Assembly: GCA_027475525.1 (NCBI GenBank)
Contig: JAMWFC010000082.1
Coordinates: forward strand, 2,046,001 to 2,110,000
Reading direction: 5' to 3'
From: Macrolepiota albuminosa
Taxonomy: Eukaryota; Basidiomycota; Agaricomycetes; Agaricales; Agaricaceae
Length of the DNA stretch: 64,000 nucleotides
Positions 37,302-64,000 of this stretch are shown here, piece after piece. How positions within the stretch are numbered: position 1 is the stretch's first letter; every line of letters starts with the position of its first letter. The position numbers were made by a program, and so were the translations under genes. The notes under the pieces are model-generated. The model was given only the letters and a program-made list of their open reading frames with translations, ran no database searches and was not told the DNA's origin.

Positions 37302-37321
37302 CAAGAACGGTGTAAGGAGAG

Positions 37322-37334
37322 AGTCTTGATATTA
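37322..37334 (-). other. Candidate self-priming primer-binding site of family C
   Basis: Directly abutting the LTR, sense strand taatatcaagact. It lacks the TGG expected for a tRNA primer. Instead it is perfectly complementary (13 of 13) to agtcttgatatta at 37718-37706 in the LTR, which lies about 25-30 nt after the LTR TATA box, where the transcript should begin. Confidence 0.7.
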
Positions 37335-40130: not shown

Positions 40131-40167
40131 TCATTGTGTTATCCGACCTTTGAATCTATCCGTTAGT

Positions 40168-40252: not shown

Positions 40253-40734
40253 ATACGACGGGCAAGTCGACGTTACCTTTTTTCTTGGTCCAACCAGACC
40301 CCGTGGACCTGCGTAGGCCTCTGTGGATGTCCGCTGGTGTCCTGCGCAGGCCTGGGAGGGCCCGCGTAGGTTTGAGTCCGTCGACGTACGTCTGCGTCCA
40401 TGTCCGCTGGTGGCTTGCGTAGGCCTGCGTAGATTTTCAGGGCCCTTTCGTGGACGTACGCTGGCGTCGGGGGTGGGAAAAGGATGGAAGGGGAGACGCG
40501 CAGCCTCGAGTTATTGCGGGGGGGAATGGAGAGGGGAGGGAAATGGGGAACCTCGAGGAGGGTTTATTCATGCCATGAAGTCCGCCACTGGAGGAGGTTT
40601 TCACTCGTGTGCTGATGCCCGCCGGCGGCCGCTGACGCACATTGACGTCCGCTAGTGTCCGCTGGCATCTGCCGGGCCTGCGTGCGCATGTGTGTGCCCG
40701 CCTTTTATCGATCCACTGGACCGTGTCATACAGC

Positions 40735-40883
40735 ACATTGTGACACGTCCGCGGCTCTGTATTCTACGGCACTGTGGGGACTGCTCCGCTCCAGTGTAGC
40801 GGACTCCGCTGGACACGTATGGTACGGCACAAAGCGGGCTCCCGTACAACGTATGACACGTACCGTTGTGATGCCCTACCCTG
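40735..40883. repeat. Right terminal inverted repeat of the hAT-like element
   Basis: Inverted near-copy of 32127-32278, differing at only a few positions by eye. On the left side the sequence is cut off by the gap. Confidence 0.8.
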
Positions 40884-41634
40884 ATGCTCTTACAAGGTGG
40901 ACTTGATCTATATGTACTCAGGTGGTCTGGAACTTCAGACCATGCTCCAGAGTTTAAGACGTGAACAAGGAATTCCTGGAATAAGAGGCTTAGTTCAGAA
41001 ATTGAGAGAAGTCAAAAAGACAATGGAGTTGAGGTTGAGTTGAAAATCGGGAATTCTAAGACAAGACCAAAGTTAATAAACTTTAAATCATGAAGTGCAT
41101 ACCAATCTCAAGAGCATGCAAGTGAATTAAGCATGCTAGTCAATGTGTGCCAGTCAATGTGTACCAGTCAATCAAAGAGCACATAAACAATTAATATAAT
41201 ATCAAGATTAACGTACGACAAGTATGTAGCTACTATTTAAGTATGTGTGGGGGTTACTTCAGGTTCCTAAGGGTTTCCAGGGTGTCTGGGGCAGTTCTAT
41301 GAATTAATGAATGGTAGTAAGTAGAAGGGAAACTGTATATCAGACATTGCACATAGGATACACAATGAATAGGCATGGAGGAGAAGCTGTAATGCATGAT
41401 GCATGATAGCTGGGATGATTGGCATGATCTGATCATTGGCAGTTGTGCTGGCAGGTAGTTCCAGAATCCATAATGCAGGATTGTCAGGAGGTGCAGCATA
41501 ATGGTAGGATCTGATGCACATGATGGCAGTGTTGGTAGTCATGATGGTGGAGTTTGTATTGTGGCAATGGTAAGGTAGTCTCAGATGGGGTTCCAGAGAT
41601 GCCCCGAGGTGGTTCTGGATAGGAGGTTATGACA
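40884..41634 (+). mobile_element. Main part of the old, CpG-depleted family-C LTR
   Basis: It aligns with 37380-38082 (ttacaaggtggacttgatc ... ggttatgaca), with CG replaced by TG or CA almost everywhere. Together with 32081-32126 it forms a solo LTR inserted in the A2 3' LTR. Confidence 0.8.
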
Positions 41635-42913: not shown

Positions 42914-43530
42914 CTGGCATGGTAATAGCTATTGGACTGCATTGATAAAGGGGTTTTTGCACTATAATGATCTACTGAGTGTTTTCTTTTTTTTTTATTT
43001 TCTTTTTGATTACTTACAAACTGACATTTTTGGAATGAAAGAGGGGGTGTTTATTTTAATACATCAAAAACTACATATCAGAATTTGATAAGTCCAACAA
43101 AGTCTGTTATTAACTGGGGCACTAAGGGCCAGCAACTACACATTATATGTGAAAAGAATGGGATTACCCAAAAGAAGCAAGTCTCCATTCTGGATGTGTT
43201 TACTTGCTTGCCACTCAAGCACATCAGTAATGTCATCATGAAGGCTGAGCAAAAGAGTCTCACAATGTGCTAAGATATTGATGCAAGAGCATAGGATGGC
43301 CAAGTCACAACTCAAGGTTTTGGTCACCTCATCAATATAACAGAGTTGGCAATGAAGCTCTTCAGCAGGATGGAGCAGAATCACCAGATAGGAAAACTCT
43401 TTTCTAAGCCAAGGAAAGGCATTGCCCATGACATGCATAGTGGGAGCAGGGGTCCAGAAGGGATCAAATTTGACAAAGTTAGCAAAAACAAGGTGAATCA
43501 GAAAAAATGAGACTTACACAAATAGTAATG
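42914..43530 (-). pseudogene. Decayed last exon of an antisense gene (aORF1 homologue)
   Basis: FDPFWTPAPTMHVMGNAFPWL and HDDITDVLEWQASKHIQNGDLL align with the last exon of A1 aORF1 (FDPFWTPPPAMRVSGDAFPWL, HDDITAALEWQVSNLIQDGDLL). The flanking 42914-43060 aligns with the sequence downstream of that gene in A1. It belongs to another decayed family-A element in sense orientation. Confidence 0.8.
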
Positions 43531-47151: not shown

Positions 47152-48415
47152 ATGTCCTTTTGTATTCCAACTCTGCCCCCAGTACCGTCTTGCGAGGCTC
47201 AAGACACTGCCTCCACCTATATCAAAAAGGCAAACAAATTTATTAGGCACATCGAGGGTGTGGGCGCGGAGGCACCTCCAAACTTGATTGTTGCTGTGAT
47301 GAAATTGTTGGAGTGCTGGTATGAGGTTTGCGTCCTTGGCGTAGGGTGGGATAGAGAAATCAAGGTGTGGAAGTGGTGCCGAGCCTGCTATGTGGATCAC
47401 CATGGCGCTGATTGGTTGGCGCCTTTTGCTCGTTTTGTGAGTGTTTCTAATTCTTGCCGTGTTGCTAGCTGATCATGTTACTAGGCGCCCCCTCTCATTC
47501 CAACAATTGAGGACGAGTTGGAGGACATTCTGTCTGGGGTGTTGCCAATGACAGTAAGCACACCTGCGGCAGAATGAGTATTTCTAACTCATTCATCCTG
47601 ACTTAGCTTTGGTCTGATTTGTCTCCTCACAGCAAACAGGAGGTGTTGGTGCCCCTTGCACACATTCAGGTGGACGAGGAGATCATAGCAAGGTGAGAGG
47701 AGGTTTCCTGAGATTCTCGGGAGATTACCAGGGCACTAGAGGAGCGAGAGAGGGTGGCAGCGTTGGCAGCAGAGATCGAGGAGATTGCTGTGGGGAAGGC
47801 ACCTGCCACCAAGAGGCAGAGGACTGAGGAATCCGGCAAGGTAGGTTGTGCCAGCAGCACTTCAAGCCCAGTGCTGCCGGCTAGCAAGTCGGGCTCGCTG
47901 AGGAAGCCGGCAGGTGCTTCCAAATGCAAAGTATATGCTGATTTTGCTTGCTGTTGCTGGTGGTCGCTAACGATATTCGCAGAGTCACAAAGCGGCTCCT
48001 CAATATGCAGTAAATAGTACTTTGAAACCTGGTCTCCTCATTTATTGTGATTTGTTTAGGTGCCTACGCAGTCCCACTTCAACGACAAGAAGCTCAAGGG
48101 TCTGCTCTTGCTGCATTGCAAGGAGGCTGTCTTGGGCGAGGGTCAGGAAGCCAGCATCATGATAGAGGAGATGAAGGGAAAGAAGACCGTTTCCCTGGCG
48201 ACCTGGCAAGCATTCAAAGAAGCATGGGGGGCGGTAAGTGACAATGTTTTTATTACTTCCCGCTAACCTCCAGATATAGTGTAACAAATGCTGGGCCAAT
48301 AATGACCCCAAAGACTGTTGGTTCCCGACTGGAGCCCAGCCATGTTATTGTTGTGGCACCCTCAAGCGTGCGTGCACTATTGACGGGGCTAAAAGTCGTG
48401 AGCGTGGTGGTGCGC
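47152..48415 (+). pseudogene. Decayed antisense gene of a family-B element
   Basis: Exon 1 starts at 47152 (MSFCIPTLPPVPSCEAQD) and aligns by pattern with aORF1 exon 1 of A1 (...WCRACYVDHHGADWLAPFARF against WCVARYREYEGADWLRPFVDLF). Further exons carry ALEERERVAALAAEIEEI and, after an intron with gtaagt donor, CNKCWANNDPKDCWFPTGAQPC. This is the same Cys motif as in A1 (CDKCWSENDPEGCWFPT). Stops are present (for example near 47697), and the gene is cut by the LTR at 48416. It shows that family B also carries the antisense gene. Confidence 0.8.
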
Positions 48416-49343
48416 TGATGATGCCCAAAGTTTGGTTAGTAACAAATATAGCAATAGTGTTACCATACCAAAAGCTTGCGTTGGGCATGCTAAAAGTAAT
48501 GTGAGGAGTCCTGGGCAGGTCCCAGAGAACACACCTATGAAAATAAGGTAAAGTTGGAAAAGGGTCAGCAAGTGTCAAGCGCTAAGGTAAAAGCACTTAT
48601 GGAGGAAGCGGTAAGTGAACATGGCAAGGTAAGTGGCAAGAACACGGTAAGCTTAGCAAAGTCTAAGCGACGTTAATGTCTGCCGTAGCTGCAAGGCGCA
48701 AGTTCATCGAGGGTTAGCAATAGTCTGCAACTGCCGATGACTTTGACGTTGCCAACCGTAAATGAGATTTAGACTGTATGGGAGACTGGAGTAAGAGGGC
48801 AGGAAACTCTGTTCTTGTTGTTCTATGTACAAGTCGGTAAGCACTTTTATACTACAACAAGATCACCGTTGCCAGTGACTAACAATTGCCAAAGTACAGT
48901 AAACTAGAAAATTTTATAGGGGTAGCTCCAACGGTTTCAGATCCCTACTGTCCATTCAAGACCCTTAGCAATGCCAGGCGGCAGATCGCAACGCTAAAAC
49001 ATCAATCCATCAATCTTTTGTCTGTCCAAAATACTAAGCAACGTCAGGTGCCAAATTGAGGCGCTAAGCAATGTCAGACACCAAGGTCAAACGCCAAGCT
49101 GTCTGTCAGTTTTTGATAGATTATCAGGCTTCTCCCCAAGCGCTGTCATTAGTGACTGATGCCATCCATCAGTTGTCATTCTGTTTGCTGTTGGCGCTAT
49201 CATTGATTGGATCTGCTCCTTGCCATGCACAGCCATCAAATATTGCCAAAATTGGTTAATTAGCGTGCGCTAAGGTATCCCGAGCCAGTGCCGTGTTGCC
49301 GTGGCCTGCCGTTGATGCACTGATCCTGTATGGGGTCCTATCA
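48416..49343 (-). repeat. Family-B LTR, second in tandem
   Basis: tgatgatgcccaaag to ggggtcctatca, 928 bp. Followed by the same polypurine/internal start as 46984, giving an LTR-internal-LTR-internal arrangement. Confidence 0.85.
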
Positions 49344-49513: not shown

Positions 49514-49744
49514 ATGTCTTTCCGTATTCCAACTCTGCCCCCCGTTCCATCCCATGAGGCTCAAGACATAGCCCACGCTTACATTGAAAAAGCCAACAAG
49601 TTTATTAGATGCATTGAGGGTGTGGGTGCGGAGGCACCTCCAAACTTGATTGTTGCTGTGATGAAGTTGTTGGAGCGCTAGTTAGAGGTGAGGGTGCTAG
49701 GTGTAGGGTGGGATCGTAAAATTGAGGTTTGGGAGTGGTGCCGG
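49514..49744 (+). pseudogene. Truncated first exon of a family-B antisense gene
   Basis: MSFRIPTLPPVPSHEAQD and VGAEAPPNLIVAVMKLLER match the copy at 47152, with a stop after LLER. It is cut at 49744 by a sense family-B LTR. Confidence 0.8.
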
Positions 49745-49900
49745 TGATAGGACCTCATACAGGATCAGCGCATCAACGGCAGGCTATGGCAACGCGGCAC
49801 CAACTTGGGATACCTTAGCGCACGCTAATTATCCAATTTTGGCGATATTTGACGGCCAGGCACGGCAAGAAGCAGATCCGATCAGTGATAGCGCCAACGG
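49745..49900 (+). mobile_element. Left part of a sense family-B LTR, split by element A1
   Basis: tgataggacctcatacagg to gatagcgccaacgg. It continues at 63691 after A1 and reaches the window end. Confidence 0.85.
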
Positions 49901-50943
49901 TGATGATGCCAACTGTGGTTGGGTGCGCTGGACGTATACGCAGTACAACGCCGTCTCCAGCGCCTGGCGTATGGGTTTGTGAGGAGTCCCGGCAGGGTCC
50001 CGGTGTGCTCGAGCAGAGGTGATAGGGCGATGCACTAGATAATAGCGCCTCGGATGCTACCTAGCAAGTGGTAAGCGTCGTAGTTTAGGAGAAGTTATAG
50101 AGAAAGAAACGAATAGCGCAGCGTAGCGTGCCCGTAGGTGGCACCGTAAATGACGAAGACGAGATAGGCGAAGCTAGCGCCGAACTTGGTGGCAAAGTCA
50201 GGCAACGCTAGCGTGATTTGAACGCTAAGTGTAACTGGGTGCTCAAGAGGTTACGATTCGTTGTTATATACATGGCAAGTAGCTAGTTTTTATACTATGC
50301 GCTACATTATTTCCAAAATAAGTCCATTGACAGCGCTACCAATTAGCACCTCCCTTTGTGACTGTAGCTAATGGCCACCTGTCAACGGCAACCTGCAGCA
50401 CATGGGTGACGGCGACCAACGGCGACTCTAAAACTACTTAGAAGTGGTACGAGTTTGCTCACTTTTTGATGTAATTTAATTGGCCATGCCATCCTGGGGT
50501 ATGGTCAGGGAATCCTCGACAGACGCCGTGAGCGCTAATTCCGGCGCTAAACATTGTACCATCTTTTGATAGATTTAAATGTCGGGTCTGCGTGTATCCT
50601 GTCTCGTCGTCATTGATTCTTTTAGACTTCTGATTGAGGTGCCTCGGTGATTGACAGCGCCAATTGCTAACTCCTTCCAGTACTGATCGGGGTTTGGTCA
50701 GAGTCCCCTCCCGCCATTATGCTAGCGCTATGAGTCCTGAGTCTTCTTGGTCTTCAAAGTAACTGAGTGGAGTGCGCTGAGGGGCTGATACTGGTGATTG
50801 AGATGAATGGATAAGTCTTGCCATAGAGCGCCCGCGCTAGGGCTGCTCTGTACCCAAGGCTGGTCGCTAGAGCCTTTAGTGTGTCAAGTGTTGGTCGGCC
50901 TATAATGTCCCTTGATGCGCTCAGTCCGAGTAGAAGCCTATCA
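49901..50943 (-). repeat. 3' LTR of element A1
   Basis: tgatgatgccaactgtgg to gtagaagcctatca. The sense strand contains a TATA box (tataaaaa, 50294-50287). Confidence 0.9.
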
Positions 50944-50955
50944 TCTCCCCCCAAC
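50944..50955 (-). other. Polypurine tract of element A1
   Basis: Sense gttggggggaga, immediately upstream of the 3' LTR. The adjacent block caactgaaaaattgactg is conserved in family-B elements at 46990 and 49350. Confidence 0.8.
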
Positions 50956-51032
50956 TGAAAAATTGACTGTCCTCAGTCAAACGCCGTCGTTAATTTGACT
51001 GCGCTACGGTCCGTATAATGCCGCCGGCGCCT

Positions 51033-51040
51033 TATAAAAA
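51033..51040 (+). promoter_or_regulatory. TATA box of antisense gene aORF1
   Basis: tataaaaa lies 51 bp upstream of the aORF1 start codon and within 100 bp of the 3' LTR, pointing into the antisense module. Its position suggests an independent plus-strand promoter. Confidence 0.6.
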
Positions 51041-51090
51041 GTCGTTTTCCGTACTTCACCTTCCCGTGTTTTCCTTCCCATCTTTCCAGT

Positions 51091-53692
51091 ATGTCCACTT
51101 CTTTCGACGCCTCTGCTCTCCGCAATTTCCTGGCTAAGGCCTCCTATTTATTTGATCGTGCTAAGTCTGTCGGTCCCGCCGATGCGCCACAAACCGTCCC
51201 TGGTATTATGCAACTCTATCGGCGCTGGCTCGTGGTCCGCGGCTCCGACAGTTCCTGGGAGCGGGGTGACGAGGTTCGTGAGTGGTGCGTGGCCCGGTAC
51301 CGTGAGTATGAGGGTGCCGATTGGTTGCGCCCTTTTGTGGACCTTTTTGTAAGTTTTCTAAGTTTGATTTTGGCGTTGTGGCGCTAAGGTTCAGCGCCCA
51401 TACCAGGCTCCCTCCTTATCTGACGAGATCAACACGTTGTTGGCTAGTACCGAGGTCAGCGAAGTAAGTCCTTCCTTCTCCTCCCCCCTTTTTTTTCCAC
51501 TGTTAATCCTTGAGTAGTCGGTTGCCACGTCTCCCACCGTCGCCAGTCTTTCTACTGCCCCCTTGGCCTCTACTGTCCCTTCTGTTCCTGCCGCCCCTCC
51601 TTCTTCGACTTCTGTTCCGCCTCCTTCCGTTCTTGGCAGCCCTTTTTGTGGCGCTGCTTCTTCCACTCGCCCTGCCCCAAGCGCTGCTTCTCCCGGCCTC
51701 CTTCCGTTCTTGGCAGCCCTTTTTGTGGCGCTGCTTCTTCCACTCGCCCTGCCCCAAGCGCTGCTTCTCCTGTCCGTACTGCCCCTCCCCATTCGGCCAT
51801 CAAACGTATTGCCGTTTCTCGTAGCGAGCCATGACCCAGCCCGACGCGCCCAACTTCTCACGGTCCTCCGCATAATTTCACCATTGTTATTGAACGAGTG
51901 CCTCCTGCTTGTGCTAGTTCTCCTCCCAAACGTACCGTGCATTCTTTCCCTATCTTCCTTACTCCATTTTTCTGACTTCTCCCCTTCCAGATCAATCTCC
52001 CTGCTCGTGTTCCCCCTTTGTATGTCGTAAGTGCTTTGCTCGTTGTCGCTAGACTTTAGCGCCTAAATGTTAATGTCGATAGGCGCCTAACCAGACCATG
52101 TTCACCGACGCAGAGCTTCGCGACCTTTTGCGTCTTCGCCGTGATACTACCGTCATTGATACCGGCGTCCTGGCTGGTGTCCAAGTACTGGGCGGCAAGA
52201 AGAAGGTTACCGTTGCGCCCTTGGAGCGTTGCACGTTTAGGGCAAAGATTGGCACGGTAAGCACTGGTTTGCCCATTGGTAGATTCATGCCGTCGCTGAC
52301 TTCTTTCTTAGTGTGACAAGTGTTGGTCTGAGAACGATCCTGAGGGCTGCTGGTTTCCTACCGCGTCTCTGCCTTGCTATCGGTGCGATGCGTTGAAACA
52401 AGGCTGCGCCTTCAACGGGATTTGTACTCGTGAACATGGTAGGGACGCCATTATGCAAAGGAACTATGAGCGCGCGGTGTTGGTTCGTAACGCCCGGGAC
52501 TTCGTGCTGCAGCAACGTGATCTGGCGGCTATTCACCAACCCACGGTAATCAGCGCAGCCAGCCTGGCTCTGCCGACTACCCAGGATGGTACTACCGTGG
52601 CGGCACCTTTTGCTCGCTCTCCTCGTCGTCCCGTCCTTTTGAAGCGTAAGCCTGTTGTCGCGTCTCCTGGCAAGAGCCCTGGTAAGCACCGCAAGCTAGC
52701 GCCTGCTACGCCTGTGGTTTTGTCTTCGACCGAGTCTTCTACGGATGAGGGGGAAGGCACTGAGAGGGATGCCGAGGGAGAGGATGATGATGAAGCTGAG
52801 CCCGTTGTTGATGCTGATGCGCTGTTGGCGGTACGCGCTCTCCTGCTTCGCCTTACTCCCCCTATCGCCGCTAACCCTCGTCAGAGTGGCCCCAGTGGTA
52901 ACCAGTACGTATTTTCCTAACTTCTCTTTTCTTCGCGTGCTAACTTCTTGACTGATAGGTCCCCCACTCCTGTTCCCGCCGTAGTGGCTATCCCTGCTGC
53001 CGAAGATGTCATTATGTCTGATGCTGGCGCTACCCCTGCCCCCGAGTCGGTTGCGGCTAGCGACACTCTGGTGGCTCTTCCTATTACTCCGTCCCTTACT
53101 CCTCCCCACAGCTCCCCTTCTTTTACTAGTAGTCGCGAGACTTCTGCGGCGCCGGAGTCCGAAGGAACCCTGGTGCTGGAAGGTGAGCGTCGTCGCCGCT
53201 GGAGATACTTGCCTCCCTACGGCATCCATCTTTCTTCCGCCAGAGCTATGTCCCCCGGCGACGAGCGCCATGAGTGGACGCCCCGTGCGCCTGTAACTGT
53301 CCGGGTACGTCCGTCTTTGTTCGTTCCCCTTTTCTCCCCTTTTCTAATCCTCCAATAAGTTCGATCCCTTTTGGACGCCCCCTCCCGCCATGCGAGTTTC
53401 TGGCGATGCCTTCCCTTGGCTCGGGGACAAGTTCTCCTATCCCGTTACCTCTCTCCGTCCTTCTGCCGACCTTTGCCAGCAACTCCGTCATATCGAGGAT
53501 GCGACCGAAGCCGTTGGTTGCGAACTTGCCAACCTGTGTCCTTGCATCTCCACCTTAGCTCGCCGCGAGCGCCTCCTTCTTGAGCTTCATGACGATATTA
53601 CAGCTGCGCTTGAGTGGCAAGTGAGTAACTTGATCCAGGACGGGGACTTGCTTCCTTTGGGCGATCCCGCCCTTCCCGAGTATGATCCGTAG
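51091..53692 (+). CDS. Antisense accessory gene 1 (aORF1), Cys-rich protein of unknown function
   Basis: Eight exons: 51091-51348, 51395-51463, 51518-51936, 51991-52026, 52095-52256, 52312-52904, 52959-53304, 53360-53692. All junctions keep frame, and exon 3 does so only if the 77-bp duplication at 51619-51772 is removed. About 712 residues. Exon 1 is a helical domain (FLAKASYLFDRAKS, EWCVARYREYEGADWL). Exon 6 opens with CDKCWSENDPEGCWFPT, PCYRCDALKQGC, a possible zinc-binding cluster (CX2C...C...CX2C...C). An acidic stretch and a helical last exon (LGDKFSYPVTSL, ELHDDITAALEW) follow. One in-frame TGA (about 51831) aligns with AGG in copy A2. Conserved in families A and B; function unknown. 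Confidence 0.75.
51619..51772. repeat. 77-bp tandem duplication (likely assembly artefact)
   Basis: Unit at 51619-51695 repeated at 51696-51772. Removing it makes aORF1 exon 3 342 bp, exactly 114 codons. Confidence 0.9.
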
Positions 53693-54067
53693 TTGCTGAC
53701 CCTTAGCGCTTTTAAACTTTTATGGACTTTGTCTTTTTGATACGAACTTTGTAGTGTGTGATCCTAAAATAAACGCCTCCCTTGGCTTCAAATCGTCAGT
53801 TTGTAAGTAATCAAAAGAAAATAAGTAAAAAGGGGAAACGCTCAGTAGATCATCACAGCGCAAAAACCCCTTTGCTGACGCGGTCCAATAGCCATTACCG
53901 CGCCAGCCTAAGTAGAAAATAGGAACTGTCTGGAAATAAATAAGCGGATCCATGTAAGAAGTAGCACGTATAAAGAAATAGAAAACCAGTGATCGCTTAT
54001 GCCCGTTTAGCGCGGTTGTGAGTAAGCGCTGAACATCGAATGTCGATTCCCTTTTTGGAGGGGCCCA

Positions 54068-54221
54068 GAATAAGTTAAACACTTTTGATTGGCTAGCGCT
54101 CCTGTTAGGGTCCTGGCTCCTTGAGAAAAGACCTCCCACGCTGTGAATAAGTTAAACACTTTTGATTGGCTAGCGCTCCTGTTAGGGTCCTGGCTCCTTG
54201 AGAAAAGACCTCCCACGCTGT
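54068..54221. repeat. 77-bp tandem duplication (likely assembly artefact)
   Basis: Unit at 54068-54144 repeated at 54145-54221, between aORF1 and aORF2. Confidence 0.9.
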
Positions 54222-54347
54222 TGCTAATCGAAACACTTCCCGTGTCCTATAAATTACTTATGCATCAACTCGATTCCATCAGTCTTCACGATGGCCACCC
54301 CGTCTGGTTGCGTGTGGACTCGAAGCTGTGATCGCGCATATGTTACC

Positions 54348-54812
54348 ATGGACCCTCCCACTTTTCTGGACCGGGCCACCTCGTTCTTTCATCATTACCC
54401 TCCCAAGGGTATTCCTAAGTTGGCCGACGAAGTAGTCGAGTTGAGTCGTCGCTGTCGGCTTCTGCGGGCTGCTTGTGAAATCTGGGGAGACGCGTCCCTG
54501 TTAACGTGTTTTGGTACAGAGGCTACTTGGAGTCAGGCTTTCCATGTGCGTGTCTTGCTATTCTTGGCGCACTCCTTCTGACAGTCGCCCAAATCCAGGA
54601 AATTGCCACCGAAGACACGGCGGATCATCTTCAACTTTTGATGGAGGAAAGCTATTACCTGGTTAGTAACTGAGCCATCACCTCTCCTTCCATGTCTAAC
54701 GGCTCTTTTCCCTTAGTCCCCTCGCAAGTATACCGGCGCTCGTCTCTTTCGTGGTCCCCTCGAGGGGCCGACGGTTGTTAGCAAGCGCATTTCTTGGTTC
54801 GGCCCTTCTTGA
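54348..54812 (+). CDS. Antisense accessory gene 2 (aORF2), small protein of unknown function
   Basis: Three exons: 54348-54545, 54599-54661, 54717-54812, all phase 0, giving about 118 residues (MDPPTFLDRATSFFHHYPPK ... RISWFGPS). The start has a good context (ttaccatgg); an in-frame ATG at 54291 would add 19 residues. Introns use gtgcgt and gttagt donors. No domain recognised. It lies about 650 bp after the aORF1 stop on the same strand, antisense to the element's gag-pol. It could be a separate gene or part of a longer spliced unit with its neighbours. Confidence 0.55.
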
Positions 54813-55066
54813 CCTGTCGCGTGTTGTTTTTCTCCCCCCCCCCTTATTGTTTGAGTGAGGCGATCCCATCTTCTTCGCAGCGCCACCGGCCTAACATATT
54901 CCCAGCTTTTTGCTTCTTTTGCCGTAGTTATATGAAATACATCGTTGTTGTCGCGTCCTCGTGATTGTGCCGCATAAGTTCTGTTTCCTAAGTCCCTTCG
55001 ACCCTGCATAATGTCGCTAGGTATATATTTGAGATTTCCGGGCCTAGCGTTGTTAAGTTCTTCGGA

Positions 55067-55932
55067 ATGCCTACTCCCTCTTTCTTTCTCGAAGACATCA
55101 CCTCCGTCCCTTGTCCCGAGGTTTTAGATTGCCTCGAGATGTTCTTTGCTTGACTGCCTCCAGGCGGTATCCGACACCATAACGGAAATATCCTTACCCT
55201 GATTTGGCGCTACCGGTTACTTCTGGCTATGGCCCAGGAGTGGCTCGTGGAGTCCGAACAGCATCCCAACGCGGTAAGTTTCTGTCGTCAGGGTGATCAA
55301 GTACCGTCTTACGTGTCCTTCCAGCCTCCTGTTTCGGGTAGCACAAAAAGCTTGGAGTACCTACTCCTCGAAACGGATAATGTTGTTAGTTCCTCTTCTT
55401 TTCCCGCTCCTACGTTCAGGTTTGCTGACCCCCAGCTTCAGACTTTGAAGTGGTTGCCCTTGCCGGACCTGATTGACGACGAAGTTCGTGCCGCCACGCT
55501 TCAGCGCGTCATCATACCGTTTACGCCTCTAGCTCCTCGCTTCGGAGCGGGAGCGCCTCCTGCCCCCATACATGAGTCTCCACCCGGTTCCTTCACCTTT
55601 CGCTTCGGAGCTGGAGCGCCGCCTGCTCCCATAAACGAATCTCCCACCGGCTCCTCCACCATTGTTCCTTCCCCTTTCGCTTCGGAGCTGGAGCACCGCC
55701 TGCTCCCATAAACGAATCTCCCACCGGCTCCTCCACCATTTGCGCTGGAGCGCCGCCTGCTCCCACCAATGAATCTCCTCCCGGCTTCTCCACCTTTCCT
55801 CCGGGGACCTTTCCCTCTACTCCGTCGCCTATTCTTCCCCCTGCACCGCCTCCTTCTCCTGCGCATCTCCGCCGCAGACAGCACCCCCGTCGCTCTGAGG
55901 GATTTGTCAGGGGTCCTCGCCGTAGAACGTAA
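55067..55932 (+). CDS. Antisense accessory gene 3 (aORF3), Pro-rich repeat protein
   Basis: Two exons, 55067-55273 and 55325-55932. Exon 2 reaches the TAA stop in frame only after removing the 77-bp duplication at 55596-55749 (531 bp, 177 codons). The N-terminal part is FLEDITSVPCPEVLDCLEM, then WRYRLLLAMAQEWLVESEQ. The C-terminal part has repeats of the type FGAGAPPAPINESPTGS and a basic tail (R-rich, SEGFVRGPRRRT). An in-frame TGA at 55151-55153 interrupts exon 1 in this copy. No family recognised. The stop lies about 140 bp from the convergent integrase stop at 56070. Confidence 0.5.
55596..55749. repeat. 77-bp tandem duplication (likely assembly artefact)
   Basis: Unit at 55596-55672 repeated at 55673-55749, one G/A difference. 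It overlaps genuine protein repeats in aORF3, but only its removal restores the frame. Confidence 0.85.
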
Positions 55933-56069
55933 AGTAGCCCATAGATAAATTATTGCCAGATCCATAGCCCTGTATAGTATTGTATAGTATGAAATTCCAC
56001 GCGTTGTTGTTCCATTCATAAGTAAGGTGCAAGGCGCTAAGGTCTAGCGCCCTTCTCCTTCGGATCCTA

Positions 56070-57495
56070 TTACTGATCGGTTTCTTCTTCTGGTGCGACT
56101 TCGTCATCGTCCACAAGTTTGGTCTCCTCTAGCTCTCGAAGTTTAGCAGTGTCAACGTCTAGCGCCGATAAAGGCAGTGAAATGTGTTCGCGTGCTAAGT
56201 AGGGAATGAGTCGGAACGCCGCTACTGGTCGATGCAAAACTGAGCCGTCCAACTCGCAGAGTACGTATGCGCCTCCCCGATTGCGGGAAACCACAATTAG
56301 GGGTCCCAGATACCGAGGCCGCATCTTTTTGTTATGAGTAACTTCGATCTTGGAGTTGCGCATTAGTACTAGGGCGCCAGTTGTGAAGTTGTAGTCTCGG
56401 ATCGTGGCGCTATGCTCGGTCTCAAATCGTAGCGCAGCTTGTCGTCTAGCCTGAAATACTACCTCGTGTAAGCGCTCGAGATCCTCCATGCGTCGTTGTA
56501 AGTCTATAGCGCGTCTAGCGATCATGTTGGTAGAGGATAGTATTGAGTTCGGTGGGGGTTGTAGGTACGTCGCTTCCACCACGTCCGCAGGTAGCAAGGG
56601 GTGGGTGCCAGTCGCCGCATAGTAGGGAGAGCAGCCCATCCTCTTTCGTACGGTAACCCGCTCCGACCAGAAGACCGAATAAGTCGCCTCGCTCCAGCGA
56701 CTTTCGTCGCCGTCGACCGCCTTGAATAGCGCTTGTCGAACATCGAAATGAGGCCTTTCTACGATTCCATTAGCACGTTTATTGTATCCTGAGACTTGGA
56801 TGTGTTGTATGTTGTATTTCTTGGCAAGATAAGTGAGCGCCTTAACTATTGGCGCTCCGTTGTCTGTGACGATCTCGTGAAGGGCTCCCCATCGGCAGAT
56901 AACGTCCTCAAAAAGCCACTTAGCTATAGCGTCTGTATTTTCCCGCTGGAGCATACGGAACTCCGGCCAATGTACCAAGGAACACCTTCCTTGAATGATA
57001 TACTTGTATCTGTATTTTCCCGCTGGAGCATACGGAACTCCGGCCAATGTACCAAGGAACACCTTCCTTGAATGATATACTTGTAGCACCCTGACTTGGG
57101 CATGTGCATGGTATTGATATATATTTTTCCGAATAACGGCGCGGGAGTCGCTACTGTTGGGGGAATTAACGTGTCTGCTGAATTTGACAGAGATGACAAG
57201 TGCGAATATACCACGCGATATTGGCGCTAACTTGCGGCCACCAAAAGCGCTCCAAAAGGTTCGCCCTTGTCGCATAGAGTCCTCGGTGTCCCAAGTCATC
57301 ATGCATAGCACGTAGAATCCTAACTTGATTATCCGGTTTGATTACTAGTTTATGGGCGCCATCTCTATTTCGTCGCCAAAGTCGGTTTTCCACCATAAAG
57401 AAAGTTGTCGCATATCGAATGAAGGTGGCGTATTCCGTATCCGTAAGGTCTGATGGTCGTTGCAAATCCTGTAGCCACTTCCTAACCTGGTCCAC
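56070..57495 (-). pseudogene. Integrase of element A1, frameshifted
   Basis: HHCC zinc-binding domain (HDDLGHRG ... CHLC) at 57320-57190. The frame breaks at about 57172, where cgttaattccc would need one more base to read LIPPTVATPAPLFG. The duplication at 56932-57085 shifts it again. The core domain has IYINTMHMPKS where a catalytic Asp is expected (Asn here, one G-to-A change), the second Asp in HEIVTDNGAP, and the Glu in NGIVERPHF. The tail (RYLGPLIVVSRNRGGAYVLC) resembles the C-terminal GPY/F-like region. Integrase inserts element DNA; this copy is unlikely to be active. Confidence 0.85.
56932..57085. repeat. 77-bp tandem duplication (likely assembly artefact)
   Basis: Unit at 56932-57008 repeated at 57009-57085, within integrase. 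Confidence 0.9.
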
Positions 57496-57525
57496 TCGCT
57501 GATCTTCTGACTTAGCTTTGGCGCT

Positions 57526-59974
57526 TCAAGGTACCGCCGAATATGGCAGGTTCTGACTGTCTTCTCGCAAGGGTCTTGGTTCCTCGACTATTTTTAGATC
57601 GTTAGATGGCTTAGCGACGTTATAGATACTGGCCGTGTAAAAAGTTGATGACGCCTGATATGGTTGGGGCTGGTACGGAACAATAGGGTGAAGCCAATTT
57701 GCAACTGGTTGGTCTTCGTGAAGCGCCGGAATAGGCAGCTGAATGATATGCATGAAACCATGCAATCGATCAATCCAGTCGTCAAATACATCGTTGTCGC
57801 TATCGTCTAGCGCTTCATCTTCCGGTTGTCTGGGTCGCCTAGATAATCCGTCCGGCCCGTGGAATGCACTTCTGACGTGTACTAACTCGAAGTGAAACAT
57901 TAATATCGCTACTACCCAGCGGTTCATACTGGCCGACGGTTGAATATCAGGGTTCTGAAGCATTCCTTTGATGTATCGTGCGTCGACCTCGACAATGAGA
58001 TTTTGTACCCCAATGAGGTACATGCGCAGCACCTGAAACGATCGAAACAAGCCATATAACTCTAGCTTGGGCTGACTGTAGCGCGATTCTTGGTCGTTAA
58101 GGGTAATCGATCCGAAGCGATTGTAGCGCCGGATCTTCCAGTTCGCGCTATCACACTGGCATAAAAAGAAGCCAACGGCGATATATGATGTGTCAACAGC
58201 AAGTATAACGGGATCGGCGGTAGTATAGTCAATAGGTACCAATGGTTTCGCTTCCTGTAGCGCTTTTACTAAGTCCTTCTGGGCATTGATTTGATCGGGT
58301 CCGAATTCGAAGGGGACCCCTGAACGGGTTAGGCGATTAAGGGCGTTTGCGCGATGAGAAAAATGGTGTATGAACATGCGCAGCACCCCTACAGTGCCCA
58401 AGAACGCGCAAACTTCTGAGAGGTTATGACAGATCCCCCATTTCTCCAACAGCGCTAATCGGCTCTTTTCTGAAATCCTGCCTTCTGGCGTGCAAACGTG
58501 CCCCAAAATTTTAAACTGCGGTGCGCAAAGAACGAGCTTGTGCCCCGAAAACATCCCGCCACAATACTTCATGCGCTGAAGTACTCGGTTAACCAGTTGA
58601 AAGAAGTCCCATAGCGCCATACAAATATTAGGATTTTCTGGGTGAACTTCGGGCTTGCCATCTACCAATCGCCAATCCTTCGGGCCTTTAACTCCTACGT
58701 CGTCTATGAAGCTGAGCACATGGTGAGGTATTTCGGGCTGTAGGATAAACGTAATATCATCGTGAAATATCGGTACCGAGTTTGTCCATCCCATAGGAAG
58801 TGTGACTAGTCGTAGCGCCCCAAACGGTGTTTGAAATGTCGTCAAGTCGCGAGAGGAAGGATGGATTAAGCGCTCGTCATAGCCTACATACAAATCCAGG
58901 GTAGCGCCACATATTCGATCAAGTCGCGAGAGGAAGGATGGATTAAGCGCTCGTCATAGCCTACGTACAAATCCAGGGTAGCGCCACATATTCGTCCCGC
59001 AAAAGATTCAGCGACGTGATCGGGCGCTCGTCATAGCCTACATACAAATCCAGGGTAGCGCCACATATTCGTCCCGCAAAAGATTCAGCGACGTGATCGG
59101 GAAATGGCAGTACCCCTGAATGACGAATGGTGACTTTGTTTAGCGGTTCTAGGCTGTGAACTATACGTAGCTTCCCGTTTTTCTTTAGTACGCAGAACCA
59201 CCTCAAGCGGTAGGCCGAATTAGAAGGCTCGTATACACCTGCCGCTATCTTGGAGCGAATAATTTGGCAGACTTCGGCTTCGATGCCTGGGGGTATGGGT
59301 TGGTTATGCTCAGTCCAGGGCACGTGCGGTATTGTCAGTATAACCACTGGTGGAAAGAAGTCAGTTCTAAGTTTACCGCGTTCTGAGTCCTCCCATGCAA
59401 AAGCCTCATTCTGTTTTTGCATGATGTCGACTAATACGTTCATCTCCTCCGTCGAGAGGAAGCCGGTATCGTGGGCGCTAAGAAATAGCGCCTTTCGTTC
59501 TTCCGTAAATCGTCCCGTTGGTTCGAAGGGTAGTGGATTTGGGTCAAGTTTTGGCAGGGTAGCCAAAGGGTCGCCTATTATTTTTCTTTCAATGCGAAAT
59601 TCCTCGGGTACGGCGCTCGCTACCGGTTTTGTTTTAAGCGCTACGGGTTTATATTTCTTCTTGACCTGAACCCCTTTGCGCTTAGGGGTACTATTGTTAG
59701 CAAACGTATTATAAATAGAGTCATGGTTTCTAGCGAAACCTGATATCAAAGATTCTTTCGAGTCGGGAGTAGAAACGAAATAAGTGTCTGTTGAAAGGTT
59801 TTCAGTAATATCTGACGCCGTGAGGTATAAGTAGGATAACGCTTCGCTAGTAAGCGACGAAGAAGAATTCAAGATTTCATGGGCTAAAGGGGTATATGAT
59901 ATAAAGTTTACTTGCCCAGTCCGATGGTTATAGTCCAAGATAAGCGCTTCATCTCCATGATCCTCATCACTCAT
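57526..59974 (-). CDS. Reverse transcriptase and RNase H of element A1
   Basis: The first ATG of pol (59974-59972) overlaps the gag stop as ATGA. RT blocks: ILTIPHVPWTEHNQPIPPG, GKLRIVHSLEPLN, GATLDLYVGYDERLIHPSS, PMGWTNSVPIFHDDI, and the YXDD-type FIDDVGVKGPKDW. RNase H: PVILAVDTSYIAVGFFL, SQPKLELYGLFRSFQVL, VEVDARYIKGMLQ. Two overlapping 77-bp duplications (58842-59100) split the frame; removing 154 bp restores it exactly. It ends at a TGA (57526-57528) with the integrase following in the same frame. Decayed copy A2 has TAA at the same codon, so the stop may be inherited. Confidence 0.85.
58842..58995. repeat. 77-bp tandem duplication (likely assembly artefact)
   Basis: Unit at 58842-58918 repeated at 58919-58995, one A/G difference; in RT. 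Confidence 0.88.
58947..59100. repeat. 77-bp tandem duplication (likely assembly artefact), overlapping the previous one
   Basis: Unit at 58947-59023 repeated at 59024-59100, one A/G difference; a second junction within 105 bp of the first. Confidence 0.88.
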
Positions 59975-62568
59975 CTCCTTGATGGCGCCGGAAAACACTC
60001 GCAAGGGTCGTCGCTAACGTAAGGTCGCTTTCTTGGTCCCGGTTTCTGGAATTTTCCTCGGGGAAACGTTGGTACCGTTCTCCTGACGCCCGAGTTAGGG
60101 TTGCTAATAGTTAGCGTCGTTTCGTCTTCAGACGTCGTCTTGACTACTGATCGGGCTAAGACGTCGAAGGGCCTCCCTAACAATAAGTCATACGCAGGCG
60201 ATCTAAGAATGTGTATTTGAAGGTAAAACGTAAGATCGCCAACAGCGCATGGCACGTTACGAGCCATTCCCAAGGATCGATCAATAGTGCCGTTAGCGCT
60301 TTGCATATTAAGAATGATGGTCGGGTTGTAAATGATGCCAAGCTCGTTAGCGACGTCAGCAGCCATTGAAATAATCTGTGATCCGCTGTCCACAATAGAT
60401 TCTATCTCGCTTTTTCCATCAACTGTCAACATAATCGAGCGAATCGCGTGAGAGTCTTGGGCTACAGTGAGGACGGCGGGATCGTCGCTAGATCTTAGCG
60501 ACTTAAGGTAAGTTTCAACCGGGTCAATGGACGTAGCTTCTTTGGGTGGCGCGGCCTCTTCTTTGATTTCCGACGTGACCGTCTTGGTTATGTACGCGAA
60601 TCCCAGTAGCGCGTCGTCGCATTCGTCCACCGCCGTTACATTGTTAGCTACGTTCTGTCGAGGGGTTACCGCTGTACGCATCTGATTCCTGACGTCTGGC
60701 GCCACACTGCATAGCTCCCCTACCGACATCATGACTTGACTCTTCATAATACAATTGAATACTTGCTTAGATTTTTCTATGTCGTAGATTGGTGCCGTTG
60801 GTCGGTAGCCTCCTGCTGGCTTGTCTGGCGCCCCAAAGTTTCGATTGATAGGCGGAGTGTAGTTACCGGCAAGTCCTGAATACGGGTGTAATGGCGGTTC
60901 TGTGCTAGCTGAGGCTTTGGCCGTATCGGGTGTGTCGTCGTTGATGCTGGGATTCGCAGGCTTTGCAGGTGCTGGATCTGACGTAGCGCCTGAGGGCCTA
61001 TAGTCTTTCAACGGTTGCTTGCTCTTTTTAATCTCTACACCATCGAAAACCTGATTTTTTAGCGACTTTAGCTCCCTTTCCAACGTCTCGATCCTCTCCT
61101 CTCGTGACAACGTCGGTCGCTCGCTAACAGCGTTAAGCTGGAGTACTTCATGGATTAGCACCTGTTGTGGAGTTGTTTCTGCCTCCGTTGTGGCCGTACT
61201 ATTGAGATTGCCCATCGCTAAGTTCCCAGGGTTCCGTCGGTGCCATTCATCAATTCGTCCCTGGAAGGTTCGGTGCTCAGGATATAGAGGGATGTTAGCG
61301 CCGGAGGGTAGGACTATTTTCCTGTCGGCGCCTCGGCGTGCTCTTCCTTGGCGTAGATATTGTTCGAGGATAGCACAGCGTCCGCAAGTCATCGTATGTC
61401 CTGCCTCACCACAGAAGTGACAAGGGCCGGATTGCATATTACCTTGTGGCGCATTAAGGCTAGTCGAGATTAACGTTTCCAATTTGCTCATAACGTTTGC
61501 GACTGCCGTGTTGACTGCGTTTTCCAGATTCTCCTTCTTGACAAAACCTCCCTGATTGTTAGTCGCGCTAGGTGCTGGCGCCGCAACAGGTGGCGCCTTT
61601 CCTCCGTTATCAGTACTAGAGGGTCGCTGGAAGGGGATGCCAGTATCCATGCCTTTCAGTATCCATTTACCTGCTTCAAAAACGTCTTCTATATCATAGG
61701 GTTCCTCAGGATGGTGGTCGGACTTAAGAATTTCTAAGCGACGAGCTATACGAGTCCATAGTGACGTTGGAATGCCTTGTTGAAACAAGCGCCGTTCCTC
61801 GTTCCTGTAGAGTTTGCCATTCTGTACTAGCCATCTTGCAATTCGCTGGAAGTCTCGATAATAAGTAGATAGCGTGCCTAGTGTATAAATGCCCGTTGCG
61901 AAGGTATCCTGTACCAGTTTCTGGATTTCAAGGACGGTATAGCGCGTGGATTCTTCAGCGCCAGGGTACAGTTTAATGATCGCCTTTTTCCATTCTTTGT
62001 AGGTATACGACCTTGGTACGGCCTCTCGTGTTAATCCTTGAAACTCATCCAGTCCCGTCCAGGATTCCGCGGTATCGTAGGAAACGTATCTGGCGGCGTA
62101 TTCTTTCATTTGTGTGTTGTCGGTGACTCGGCAGTCGCGTAATAAATATTCCAATTCTCGGAAATACTGTGTTAGCTCGCAAGGTTTCGTCTCGTCCCAT
62201 TTTGGTGACGAGAAGTGGTTTCTTGGCGGCATACGTGGTGTGTTTGCCTGCTCCATATTAACTGGCGTCGACATCGTGGTGGGGATAGTAGTGTTAGTAG
62301 TGGTTTTGCTTAGCGTGGTTGTAGTCGGTACTGGCTCGGGTAACTCTGAGTCGCTAGGTTCTGGCGATAATGACCTGGACAACTCTTCCAAAGGAGTAAG
62401 CAGTGTATGGTTTTCACCCGCTAAGTATTCGAACGGTTGGGAAAATGGGAAGAAGCTTTCAGCCAAGCTATCTGGAGCGGCTTCAAGTTCCTGATCTAAA
62501 GTCTGCCTCGGTAGCGCGCCTGGTAAGTGTGGTGACTCAGTTAAGGTTTGTTCAAACGCGCTCTCCAA
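59971..62568 (-). CDS. Gag and protease of element A1
   Basis: Open frame of 865 codons. The first ATG is at 62274 (MSTPVNMEQ), but the upstream frame to 62568 (LLTPLEELSRSLSPEPSD) is also preserved in copy A2, so translation may start earlier by an unseen route. Capsid-like region: CELTQYFRELEYLLRDC, YKEWKKAIIKLYPGAEESTR, YYRDFQRIARWLVQNGKL. Knuckle: CHFCGEAGHTMTCGRC. A region resembling fungal DUF4100 follows (KSQVMMSVGELCSVAPDVR). The retropepsin has IVDSGSQIISM and YDLLLGRPFDVL. It ends overlapping the pol ATG (ATGA). No stop or frameshift is seen. Confidence 0.88.
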   Translation of the reverse strand: MESAFEQTLTESPHLPGALPRQTLDQELEAAPDSLAESFFPFSQPFEYLAGENHTLLTPLEELSRSLSPEPSDSELPEPVPTTTTLSKTTTNTTIPTTMSTPVNMEQANTPRMPPRNHFSSPKWDETKPCELTQYFRELEYLLRDCRVTDNTQMKEYAARYVSYDTAESWTGLDEFQGLTREAVPRSYTYKEWKKAIIKLYPGAEESTRYTVLEIQKLVQDTFATGIYTLGTLSTYYRDFQRIARWLVQNGKLYRNEERRLFQQGIPTSLWTRIARRLEILKSDHHPEEPYDIEDVFEAGKWILKGMDTGIPFQRPSSTDNGGKAPPVAAPAPSATNNQGGFVKKENLENAVNTAVANVMSKLETLISTSLNAPQGNMQSGPCHFCGEAGHTMTCGRCAILEQYLRQGRARRGADRKIVLPSGANIPLYPEHRTFQGRIDEWHRRNPGNLAMGNLNSTATTEAETTPQQVLIHEVLQLNAVSERPTLSREERIETLERELKSLKNQVFDGVEIKKSKQPLKDYRPSGATSDPAPAKPANPSINDDTPDTAKASASTEPPLHPYSGLAGNYTPPINRNFGAPDKPAGGYRPTAPIYDIEKSKQVFNCIMKSQVMMSVGELCSVAPDVRNQMRTAVTPRQNVANNVTAVDECDDALLGFAYITKTVTSEIKEEAAPPKEATSIDPVETYLKSLRSSDDPAVLTVAQDSHAIRSIMLTVDGKSEIESIVDSGSQIISMAADVANELGIIYNPTIILNMQSANGTIDRSLGMARNVPCAVGDLTFYLQIHILRSPAYDLLLGRPFDVLARSVVKTTSEDETTLTISNPNSGVRRTVPTFPRGKFQKPGPRKRPYVSDDPCECFPAPSRR

Positions 62569-62626
62569 TAGGAGGCGGCGCTGTCGCTGGGCTCGAGTTT
62601 CCGGCGGAATTCTGCCTCAATAGAAC

Positions 62627-62644
62627 CCCTCGCGGTGGGCTCCA
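62627..62644 (-). other. Candidate tRNA primer-binding site of element A1
   Basis: Sense tggagcccaccgcgaggg begins three bases after the 5' LTR. Its TGG matches the CCA end of a tRNA, but I could not assign a specific tRNA from memory. Confidence 0.6.
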
Positions 62645-62647
62645 AAA

Positions 62648-63690
62648 TGATGACGCCAACTGTGGTTGGGTGCGCTGGACATATACGCAGTACAACGCCG
62701 TCTCCAGCGCCTGGCGTACGGGTTTGTGAGGAGTCCTGGCAGGGTCCCGGTGTGCTCGAGCAGAGGTGATAGGGCGATGCACTAGATGATAGCGCCTCGG
62801 GTGCTACTTAGCAAGTGGTAAGCGTCGTAGTTTAGGAGAAGTTATAGAGAAAGAAACGAATAGCGCAGCGTAGCGTGCCCGTAGGTGGCACCGTAAACGA
62901 CGAAGACGAGATAGGCAAAGCTAGCGCCGAACTTGGTGGCAAAGTCAGGCAACGCTAGCGCGATTTGAACGCTAAGTGTAACTGGGTGCTCAAGAGGTTA
63001 CGATTCGTTGTTATATACATGGCAAGTAGCTAGTTTTTATACTATGCGCTACATTATTTCCAAAATAAGTCCATTGACGGCGCTACCAATTAGCGCCTCC
63101 CTTCGTGACTGTAGCTAACGGCCACCTGTCAACGGCGACCTGCAGCACATGGGTGACGGCGACCAACGGCGACTCTAAAACTACTTAGAAGTGGTACGAG
63201 TTTGCTCACTTTTTGATGTAATTTAATTGGCCATGCCATCCTGGGGTATGGTCAGGGAATCCTCGACAGACGCCGTGAGCGCTAATTCCGGCGCTAAACA
63301 TTGTACCATCTTTTGATAGATTTAAATGTCGGGTCTGCGTGTATCCTGTCTCGTCGTCATTGATTCTTTTAGACTTCTGATTGAGGTGCCTCGGTGATTG
63401 ACAGCGCCAATTGCTAACTCCTTCCAGTACTGATCGGGGTTTGGTCAGAGTCCCCTCCCGCCATTATGCTAGCGCTATGAGTCCTGAGTCTTCTTGGTCT
63501 TCAAAGTAACTGAGTGGAGTGCGCTGAGGGGCTGATACTGGTGATTGAGATGAATGGATAAGTCTTGCCATAGAGCGCCCGCGCTAGGGCTGCTCTGTAC
63601 CCAAGGCTGGTCGCTAGAGCCTTTAGTGTGTCAAGTGTTGGTCGGCCTATAATGTCCCTTGATGCGCTCAGTCCGAGTAGAAGCCTATCA
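62648..63690 (-). repeat. 5' LTR of element A1
   Basis: tgatgacgccaactgtgg to gtagaagcctatca, 1043 bp, same length as the 3' LTR. Visible differences are transitions. Confidence 0.9.
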
Positions 63691-64000
63691 ATGGCAGCAA
63701 GAATGACAACTGACAGATGGCATCAGTCACTGATGACAGCGCTTAGGGAGAAGCCTGATGATCTATCAAAAACTGACAGACAGCTTGGCGTTTGACCTTG
63801 GCGTCTGACATCGCTTAGCGCCTCGATTTGGCGCCTGACATTGCTAAGCATTTTGGACAGACAGAAGGGTGATGGATTGATGGTTTAGCACTTAGCGCCT
63901 CGATTTGGCGCCTGACATTGCTAAGCATTTTGGACAGACAGAAGGGTGATGGATTGATGGTTTAGCACCACGATCTGCCGCCTGGCGTCGCTAAGGCTCT
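63691..64000 (+). mobile_element. Right part of the sense family-B LTR hosting A1
   Basis: Begins atggcagcaagaatgac, continuing the LTR cut at 49900, and runs off the window end. Confidence 0.8.
63814..63967. repeat. 77-bp tandem duplication (likely assembly artefact)
   Basis: Unit at 63814-63890 repeated at 63891-63967, in the family-B LTR. Confidence 0.9.

Follow-up and report, generated by a model that had tools for sequence, protein, structure and literature searches.

Additional open reading frames (ORFs) on the strand opposite to gag-pol have been described between pol and the 3' long terminal repeat (LTR) of several plant Ty3/Gypsy retrotransposons, including Grande (gene23), RIRE2, Retand and PvRetro13 (PMC7264820; PMC11963269). 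The function of such antisense ORFs in LTR retrotransposons has been described as unknown (PMC7264820). In fungi, Boty of Botrytis cinerea is a Gypsy element with the antisense gene brtn (Zhao et al., 2011, cited in PMC7264820, PMC8365987 and PMC4227169). In this study, we analysed a stretch of 64,000 nucleotides of the Macrolepiota albuminosa genome (contig JAMWFC010000082.1, contig positions 2046001-2110000; hereafter the window), in which a minus-sense Ty3/Gypsy element at 49901-63690 carries three plus-strand genes, here genes 1 to 3, between its integrase part and its 3' LTR. Relatives were searched for in the whole genome (100,137,612 bases in 129 contigs). The two LTRs differ at 15 of 1043 aligned columns, every difference being a transition, and they are flanked by a 4-bp target duplication with one mismatch (ACGG/ATGG); an empty-site homologue within the window, at about 30300-30400, reads through the insertion point. 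Pfam matches were obtained for protease and for reverse transcriptase (RT)-RNase H, and a putative integrase piece lies in the place expected for Ty3/Gypsy, for which Pfam gave no match in the window copy. An original prediction made from the sequence alone had described a minus-sense Gypsy element with matched LTRs and a target duplication, in which antisense genes of 8, 3 and 2 exons separate integrase from the 3' LTR. This observation was confirmed, and the three gene models were recovered.

The antisense module resembles the plant ORFs in place and orientation, in its presence in most copies and in a suspected nuclear or DNA-binding role (PMC7264820; PMC11963269). The Grande ORF is transcribed from a promoter of its own (PMC7264820; PMC11963269), and promoter-like boxes of their own precede the genes studied here. 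Unlike the plant ORFs, the module comprises three genes, with 7, 2 and 1 introns, and is accompanied by a dispersed conserved DNA word; the parts of PMC11963269 on introns and splicing describe no introns in the plant antisense ORFs. The TRP28 domain of Retand (PF04195) is absent, there being no Pfam match at E ≤ 1. Boty, compared by description only, is likewise a Gypsy element from a fungus that bears an additional antisense gene, but a single one instead of three. No Botrytis protein occurs by name among the 29 database relatives of gene 1, a comparison that did not include the BRTN sequence itself. Mobile group I introns can harbour homing endonuclease genes that are antisense and contain spliceosomal introns, a further case of a mobile element keeping antisense introns (PMC9548176), although element and protein are unrelated to those described here. 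Among the matches listed from the open-licence literature, subscription papers being outside the scope, none described a fungal LTR element with both a dispersed motif and an antisense module of several spliced genes. Antisense extra ORFs are already known from plants and from Boty; apparently new is the three-gene form with its predicted splicing, together with the dispersed word.

Codon-level selection, introns and promoter boxes

Judged from the substitution pattern of their codons, the three genes almost certainly form a protein-coding, selected antisense module. The ratio of nonsynonymous to synonymous substitution rates (dN/dS) was estimated by the Nei-Gojobori method, with the window copy as reference for gene 1. 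Against 20 diverged loci from a search with exon 8, gene 1 gave 0.06-0.37, with 15 loci at or below 0.20; the five above 0.20 (L029, L030, L031, L034 and L045) were compared over one or two exons only, and L029 is itself window sequence (43142-43474). Within the family the ratio was 0.27-1.12 across 20 copies and below 0.5 in 17 of them. A dN/dS near 1 in all young copies, which the original prediction had named as speaking against its proposal, was therefore not found. Compared with the diverged element L049, gene 1 had a dN/dS of 0.106 at a synonymous divergence (dS) of 0.786, and the pol pieces gave 0.067, 0.032 and 0.048, so that conservation of the gene 1 protein is like that of gag-pol, as in aORF-3R elements. 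Stops occurred in two of 90 assessable gene 1 exons (exons 1, 5, 6, 7 and 8 in the 20 family copies); ten further exons were excluded from this count, mostly for 77-bp insertions, which are discussed below. For gene 2 exon 1, 12 chosen copies yielded 52 pairs with finite dS and 14 saturated pairs; dN/dS was at most 0.30 in 48 of the 52, and for gene 3 exon 1 in 14 of 16 pairs among seven copies (five saturated).

As a frame control, the aligned exon 6 (four loci) and exon 8 (five loci) were read in six frames. The annotated frame contained zero stops and had ratios of 0.06-0.22, whereas the other five frames held 1-20 stops per sequence, and four of these had ratios of at least 0.72. Two observations speak against selection on these codons. 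The within-family dN/dS of gene 1 reaches 0.60, 0.69 and 1.12 in three of the 20 copies, and one frame of the other strand is also low (0.14-0.30, with 3-7 stops); the latter is expected where its third positions coincide with the real ones. Since selection acts on codons of the annotated frame, an RNA antisense to the 3' region of the element, which had been offered as one possibility, is disfavoured as the main function. The module had also been described as stably inherited cargo. The stable inheritance stands, but cargo is too weak a word for genes under purifying selection.

The intron positions are kept as well. At the exon 5-6 boundary of gene 1, all 21 lineage-A family copies, counting the window, have GT..AG at an unchanged codon position, as do 10 of 12 diverged loci; at the exon 7-8 boundary the figures are 17 of 19 family copies and 10 of 13 diverged loci. 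Of the misses, three are due to 77-bp duplications and most of the rest to a decayed GT. Gene 2 has GT-AG at intron 1 in 15 of 16 and at intron 2 in 14 of 14 copies assessed. The lengths of gene 1 introns vary at kept positions (55, 54, 51 and 50 nucleotides; 55, 50, 49 and 47 nucleotides), and in six diverged loci the gaps are of 3, 9 or 15 bases in exons and of 1, 4, 5 or 8 bases in introns. From these patterns we infer splicing at the predicted junctions of genes 1 to 3. In lineage B, described below, exons 6-8 of gene 1 form one open frame of 387 residues (L050, 2524-3684); judged by this frame, the lineages differ by the loss or gain of introns 6 and 7 within a gene that a retrotransposon carries. 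Antisense introns escape loss because the transposing RNA is sense. In the module they would persist in the same way, reading CT...AC and remaining unspliced in that RNA.

The original prediction had proposed a promoter of the module's own, with a TATA box at 51033, and a promoter-like box was found for each of the three genes. TATAAAA precedes gene 1 in 16 of the 18 regions listed, both misses being 77-bp insertions. Upstream of gene 2, CTATAAATT is present in all 37 copies, including the 24 whose exon 1 is less than 70% identical, and one of four TATA-like forms lies upstream of gene 3 in 31 of 32 copies (not in L048).

Copies, lineages and the dispersed DNA word

Probing the genome with module DNA returned 393 candidate places. 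Of these, 40 were scored, the window among them, and every one matched at 96% or more. The exon 8 search gave 761 candidates, of which 150 were scored, and exon 8 was without a stop in 16 of the 20 loci cut from it. Twenty family copies (L009-L028) were taken as 8-kb stretches. The match continues past 56070 into the 3' end of pol in all of them, and an LTR lies on the other side of the module in 19 (the exception is L026). In all 23 loci fetched with their pol side (L009-L028 and L049-L051), pol is on the opposite strand and adjoins the module; homologues existing only as ordinary host genes, the other outcome that had been named as adverse, are thus not what the genome contains. The 20 copies fall into two subfamilies of ten, one window-like and one with diverged genes 2 and 3 (L011, L013, L014, L017, L019, L021, L023, L024, L026 and L028), in which identity with the window is about 62% for gene 2 exon 1 and about 43% for gene 3 exon 1. 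The replaced stretch is 54250-56070, that is genes 2 and 3 and the end of pol, and the swapped gene set suggests an exchange between families.

The order LTR, genes 1, 2 and 3, then pol on the other strand recurs in L049, whose LTR is 76% identical. A gene 1 relative with oppositely oriented pol is also present in lineage B (L050 and L051), where genes 2 and 3 gave no match at E ≤ 0.01. Gene 1 is therefore the common core of both lineages. A third gene 1 lineage was sought with two Termitomyces queries, and the best 150 matches listed per query all resembled lineages A and B. The older homologues previously noted in the window were recovered by tblastn (A2 exons at 30974-28435, and 43474-43142, 47218-47454 with 48280-48435, and 49580-49741), and the module, rightly considered ancestral, is older than the families compared and stably carried through transposition.

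The element is dense in the word TAGCGC/GCGCTA, with 61 occurrences against 8.6 expected from dinucleotide composition; this count includes both LTRs and three repeats through 77-bp duplications. The excess is seen in the LTR (10 vs 0.9), the module (12 vs 2.6) and pol (27 vs 4.1), and again in L049 (51 vs 6.7). The whole window contains 100 words against 21.5 by shuffling, and none of 100 shuffles reached 100. In the window the word is little raised at 1-17000 (7 vs 4.0) and is not raised in an unrelated Gypsy element at 32400-41500 (1 vs 2.2). Lineage B is instead dense in TT[AG][CG]CG, with 126 occurrences in L050 and 159 in L051 against 23.6 expected in the latter (0 of 200 shuffles). In pol, the words occupy all codon phases. 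The strand split is 37/24 in the window element (A1), and is unbiased in L049 (26/25), L050 (61/65) and L051 (73/86), which looks as for a site in double-stranded DNA. As gene 1 and pol are present in lineage B and genes 2 and 3 are unmatched there, gene 1 would be the shared partner of both motifs.

The words are also conserved in place. Between the window and L049, 27 of 39 alignable TAGCGC words are conserved, compared with a fraction of 0.287 for other CpG-bearing 6-mers (p 1.9e-7); by part, the counts are 8 of 10 in the LTR (control 0.40), 7 of 11 in the module (0.21) and 12 of 18 in pol (0.37). Between L050 and L051, 90 of 118 TT[AG][CG]CG words are exactly conserved (control 0.46, p 2e-11). 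Counts are high although 12 of the 39 window words lack a counterpart at their position in L049, which indicates that gain or loss of words occurs as well. Among family copies, CpGs within AGCGC were decayed in 24 of 698 cells, compared with 505 of 6090 for other CpGs (p 1e-6). However, singleton CpG changes were not rarer in the word, with 14 at 34 sites against 80 at 295, and a shielding of word CpGs from deamination in resident copies is therefore unsupported; the combination points to selection on what is transmitted.

Older element remains at about 18000-28000 of the window have 6-13 CpGs per 2 kb, compared with about 130 in the young element, and hold decayed TAGCGC forms, a pattern expected from methylation-driven decay.

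Possible role of gene 1 and alternative explanations

The gene 1 protein has a cluster of six cysteines, invariant in eight sequences spanning both lineages; five of the six reach at least 90% in 22 Termitomyces proteins. C-terminal to the cluster lie a lysine/arginine-rich stretch and an acidic stretch. A search of the protein database with the 8-sequence alignment returned 29 relatives, 27 of them named, and all 27 are hypothetical proteins of Termitomyces strains; several relatives from this genus unite N-terminus, cysteine part and C-terminus within a single predicted protein. By these relatives, the source of the genome is probably a Termitomyces or close to that genus. In the same database, a 481-residue piece of gene 1 had no match at E ≤ 0.001 and its residues 1-130 none at E ≤ 1. 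A PDB profile search reached at best E 0.36, and an IMG/VR scan yielded no relative. Genes 2 and 3 are paralogous, with similar first exons (hhalign 92%, E 6e-7); paralogy of gene 1 exon 1 with either of them is unsupported (hhalign probabilities 0.2 and 1.9). Genes 2 and 3, seen in lineage A alone, may be partners.

The best explanation overall, to which we give a probability of about one half, is that the three genes are an accessory antisense module of a Ty3/Gypsy lineage that acts for its own element. The module would be transcribed from promoters of its own, in the direction opposite to gag-pol, and the gene 1 protein, with its zinc-cluster-like cysteine domain and its basic and acidic stretches, would be a nuclear DNA-binding factor. 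It would recognise the word of its own family, TAGCGC in lineage A and TT[AG][CG]CG in lineage B, at dozens of sites per copy, and once bound would activate or un-silence its own element, as VANC does for VANDAL. That gene 1 is linked to the motif, and to activation or anti-silencing, seems to us slightly less probable than the opposite. With still more reserve, we propose that a Gypsy superfamily of termite-fungus mushrooms may possess its own sequence-specific transcription or anti-silencing system, in which an antisense, intron-bearing zinc-cluster gene and a co-evolving, lineage-specific word, repeated dozens of times over the element and also within its coding regions, would form the counterpart of VANC in an LTR retrotransposon; the antisense position would protect the gene from losing its introns. 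The regulatory or anti-silencing function guessed at in the original prediction gains independent support from the dispersed, conserved and lineage-specific motif, both binding and function being presumed.

VANDALs are not LTR retrotransposons. If the proposed role holds, the likeness to VANDAL/VANC of Arabidopsis consists in an element-encoded protein and a dense family-specific word that differs between related families (PMC5735166). A family-specific short word at high density is indeed present here, with partial overlap between the words of the two lineages. VANDAL words are found chiefly in non-coding tandem repeats and share one orientation (PMC5735166), whereas those described here occur on both strands and also inside pol. 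As to homology with VANC, gene 1 has no Pfam or NCBIfam match and no plant protein is among its named relatives; no direct comparison with VANC was made.

Several observations weigh against a DNA-binding role of gene 1 at these words. The six cysteines of gene 1 are zinc-cluster-like, but the pattern of Zn2Cys6 zinc clusters has C-x2-C-x6-C, from which the C-x2-C-x8-C of gene 1 departs, its first spacing being x8. Gene 1 matches no family in Pfam (E ≤ 1), NCBIfam or PDB, and the AlphaFold model of P0017 (22 alignment rows) is poor over the cysteine part, with a mean predicted local distance difference test score of 52.8. The words of the two lineages overlap in a common core, [AG][CG]CG, and each shows a mild excess in the other lineage: TAGCGC in L051 (31 vs 6.7), TTAGCG in lineage A. 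When the two subfamilies are compared over 54250-57000, word conservation is no more than suggestive (4 of 7, p 0.059), and the singleton CpG changes given above point the same way.

Alternatively, gene 1 might encode an accessory protein of the replication cycle, for example for nuclear entry of the pre-integration complex, as has been proposed for products of plant antisense ORFs, with the motif serving another purpose such as the layout of nucleosomes or the binding of a host factor. A nuclear location is known for plant GENE23, accessory roles of the retroviral kind have been discussed (PMC7264820), and a physical tie between gene 1 and the motif is hypothetical. Nevertheless, we consider this explanation unlikely, because motif and gene 1 vary in concert from lineage to lineage, the motif occurs on either strand of LTR, module and pol alike, and a word used by the host for silencing would be expected to be lost rather than conserved.

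A self-limiting regulator, which would reduce the element's expression and thereby harm the host less, has a precedent in HBZ of human T-cell leukaemia virus type 1, an antisense, spliced gene with a nuclear product that lowers 5' LTR activity (PMC10186651). Repression fits the same sequence facts as activation, among them the LTR dense in motif (10 vs 0.9 expected). HBZ and APH of deltaretroviruses resemble the module as regulatory antisense, spliced genes of LTR elements; they differ in having a promoter in the 3' LTR and in being one gene (PMC10186651), whereas the module has three separate TATA boxes and, having no Pfam match, no bZIP domain. Several hundred candidate copies (393 with the module probe, 761 with exon 8), many of them young, are unlike strong self-limitation, and we regard such a role as improbable.

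It is far less probable again that host genes were captured once as passengers, or that an antisense non-coding RNA contains incidental frames. Position and orientation would agree with this, antisense transcripts being known from many retroelements (PMC7264820), but it is refuted as the whole story by codon-level selection: dN/dS is about 0.1 between families, gaps preserve the frame, intron positions and promoter boxes are kept, and the named relatives (27 of 29) are hypothetical Termitomyces proteins, none of known function. That the module or its introns are an artefact of an assembly with 77-bp duplications, two of them inside the module, is refuted by the independent copies, as the module is common to 20 copies at different places and to diverged families.

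The window copy, its surroundings and wider meaning

The coordinates of the element and of its antisense module are given in Table 1. Near-exact tandem duplications with a period of exactly 77 occur 83 times in 224 kb (window and 20 fetched loci), where the only exceptions among periods of 30-199 are a 30-base run in L027 and the gap of 100 N at 32279. A second locus set of 96 kb contains 15 duplications of period 77 and none of other periods of 40-159. In the window they start, for example, at 235, 19131, 26062, 33434, 33895, 51619, 54068, 56932 and 63814. One single period at many unrelated places rules out a biological feature, and the duplications are presumably untrimmed overlaps of an assembly with k=77. 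Frame breaks at the two duplications in the module and at the one in pol are therefore not biological. In the window copy, exon 3 of gene 1 and exon 1 of gene 3 each contain a stop, and the frame is broken in exon 2 of gene 3, so that its module is not fully intact; copies free of the two stops exist elsewhere in the genome.

Table 1. Features of the Ty3/Gypsy element and its antisense genes (window positions).
Feature	Position	Strand	Basis or remark
5' LTR (element sense)	62648-63690	-	LTR pair comparison
3' LTR	49901-50943	-	LTR pair comparison; 10 TAGCGC/GCGCTA words vs 0.9 expected
Target duplication ACGG	49897-49900	.	Partner ATGG at 63691-63694; 4 bp, one mismatch
Putative primer-binding site, starts TGG	62628-62644	-	Assigned by position
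Putative polypurine tract adjoining 3' LTR	50944-50957	-	Assigned by position
gag-pol, interrupted, four open pieces	56070-62616	-	Pieces listed separately
gag and protease piece	59971-62616	-	gag-protease Pfam match
Second open gag-pol piece	58961-60013	-	
RT and RNase H piece	57526-58953	-	Pfam match for RT-RNase H
Integrase part	56070-57341	-	Position and likeness to the same part of other copies
TATA box, gene 1	51033-51038	+	58 nt before ATG
Gene 1, 8 exons	51091-53692	+	Gene model
Gene 1 exons 1-4	51091-51348, 51407-51463, 51518-51936, 51991-52026	+	Exon 3 with 77-bp duplication and stop
Gene 1 exons 5-8	52083-52256, 52312-52904, 52959-53304, 53360-53692	+	Exon 6 with six-cysteine cluster
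Six-cysteine cluster of gene 1, C-x2-C-x8-C-x8-C-x2-C-x6-C	52312-52407	+	Alignment of 8 sequences
TATA box, gene 2	54248-54253	+	43 nt before ATG
Gene 2, 3 exons (54291-54545, 54599-54661, 54717-54812)	54291-54812	+	Gene model
TATA-like box, gene 3	55022-55027	+	45 nt before ATG
Gene 3, 2 exons (55067-55273, 55325-55932)	55067-55932	+	Gene model; stop and frame break in window copy
77-bp tandem duplication in gene 1 exon 3	51619-51772	.	Read as assembly artefact
77-bp tandem duplication between genes 1 and 2	54068-54221	.	Read as assembly artefact
77-bp duplication in pol	from 56932	.	Period scan
TAGCGC/GCGCTA words, 61	49901-63690	both (37 and 24)	Spread over LTRs, module and pol

Another Gypsy element, unrelated to the first, lies at 32267-37331, with Pfam matches for RT and gag; tblastn found no match to the module in it, and the word is not enriched there. 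The scaffold gap of 100 N (32279-32378) adjoins a 142-bp near-identical inverted copy (32137-32278 and 40732-40873). Paired 90-bp repeats at 38301-38390 and 38886-38975 contain the stretch GGTTCGACTCC, which we take to resemble a tRNA promoter box; an ARAGORN tRNA scan and an Rfam scan of the window, these repeats included, returned nothing.

Because a single genome holds young copies by the hundred alongside several diverged families, selection on the three antisense genes can be measured and a candidate DNA target becomes visible. If the module does act for its own element through gene 1 and the dispersed word, a retrotransposon can retain intron-bearing regulatory genes by writing them backwards, and self-recognition through dispersed words would have arisen outside plant DNA transposons. 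The system could then show how such elements evade host silencing.

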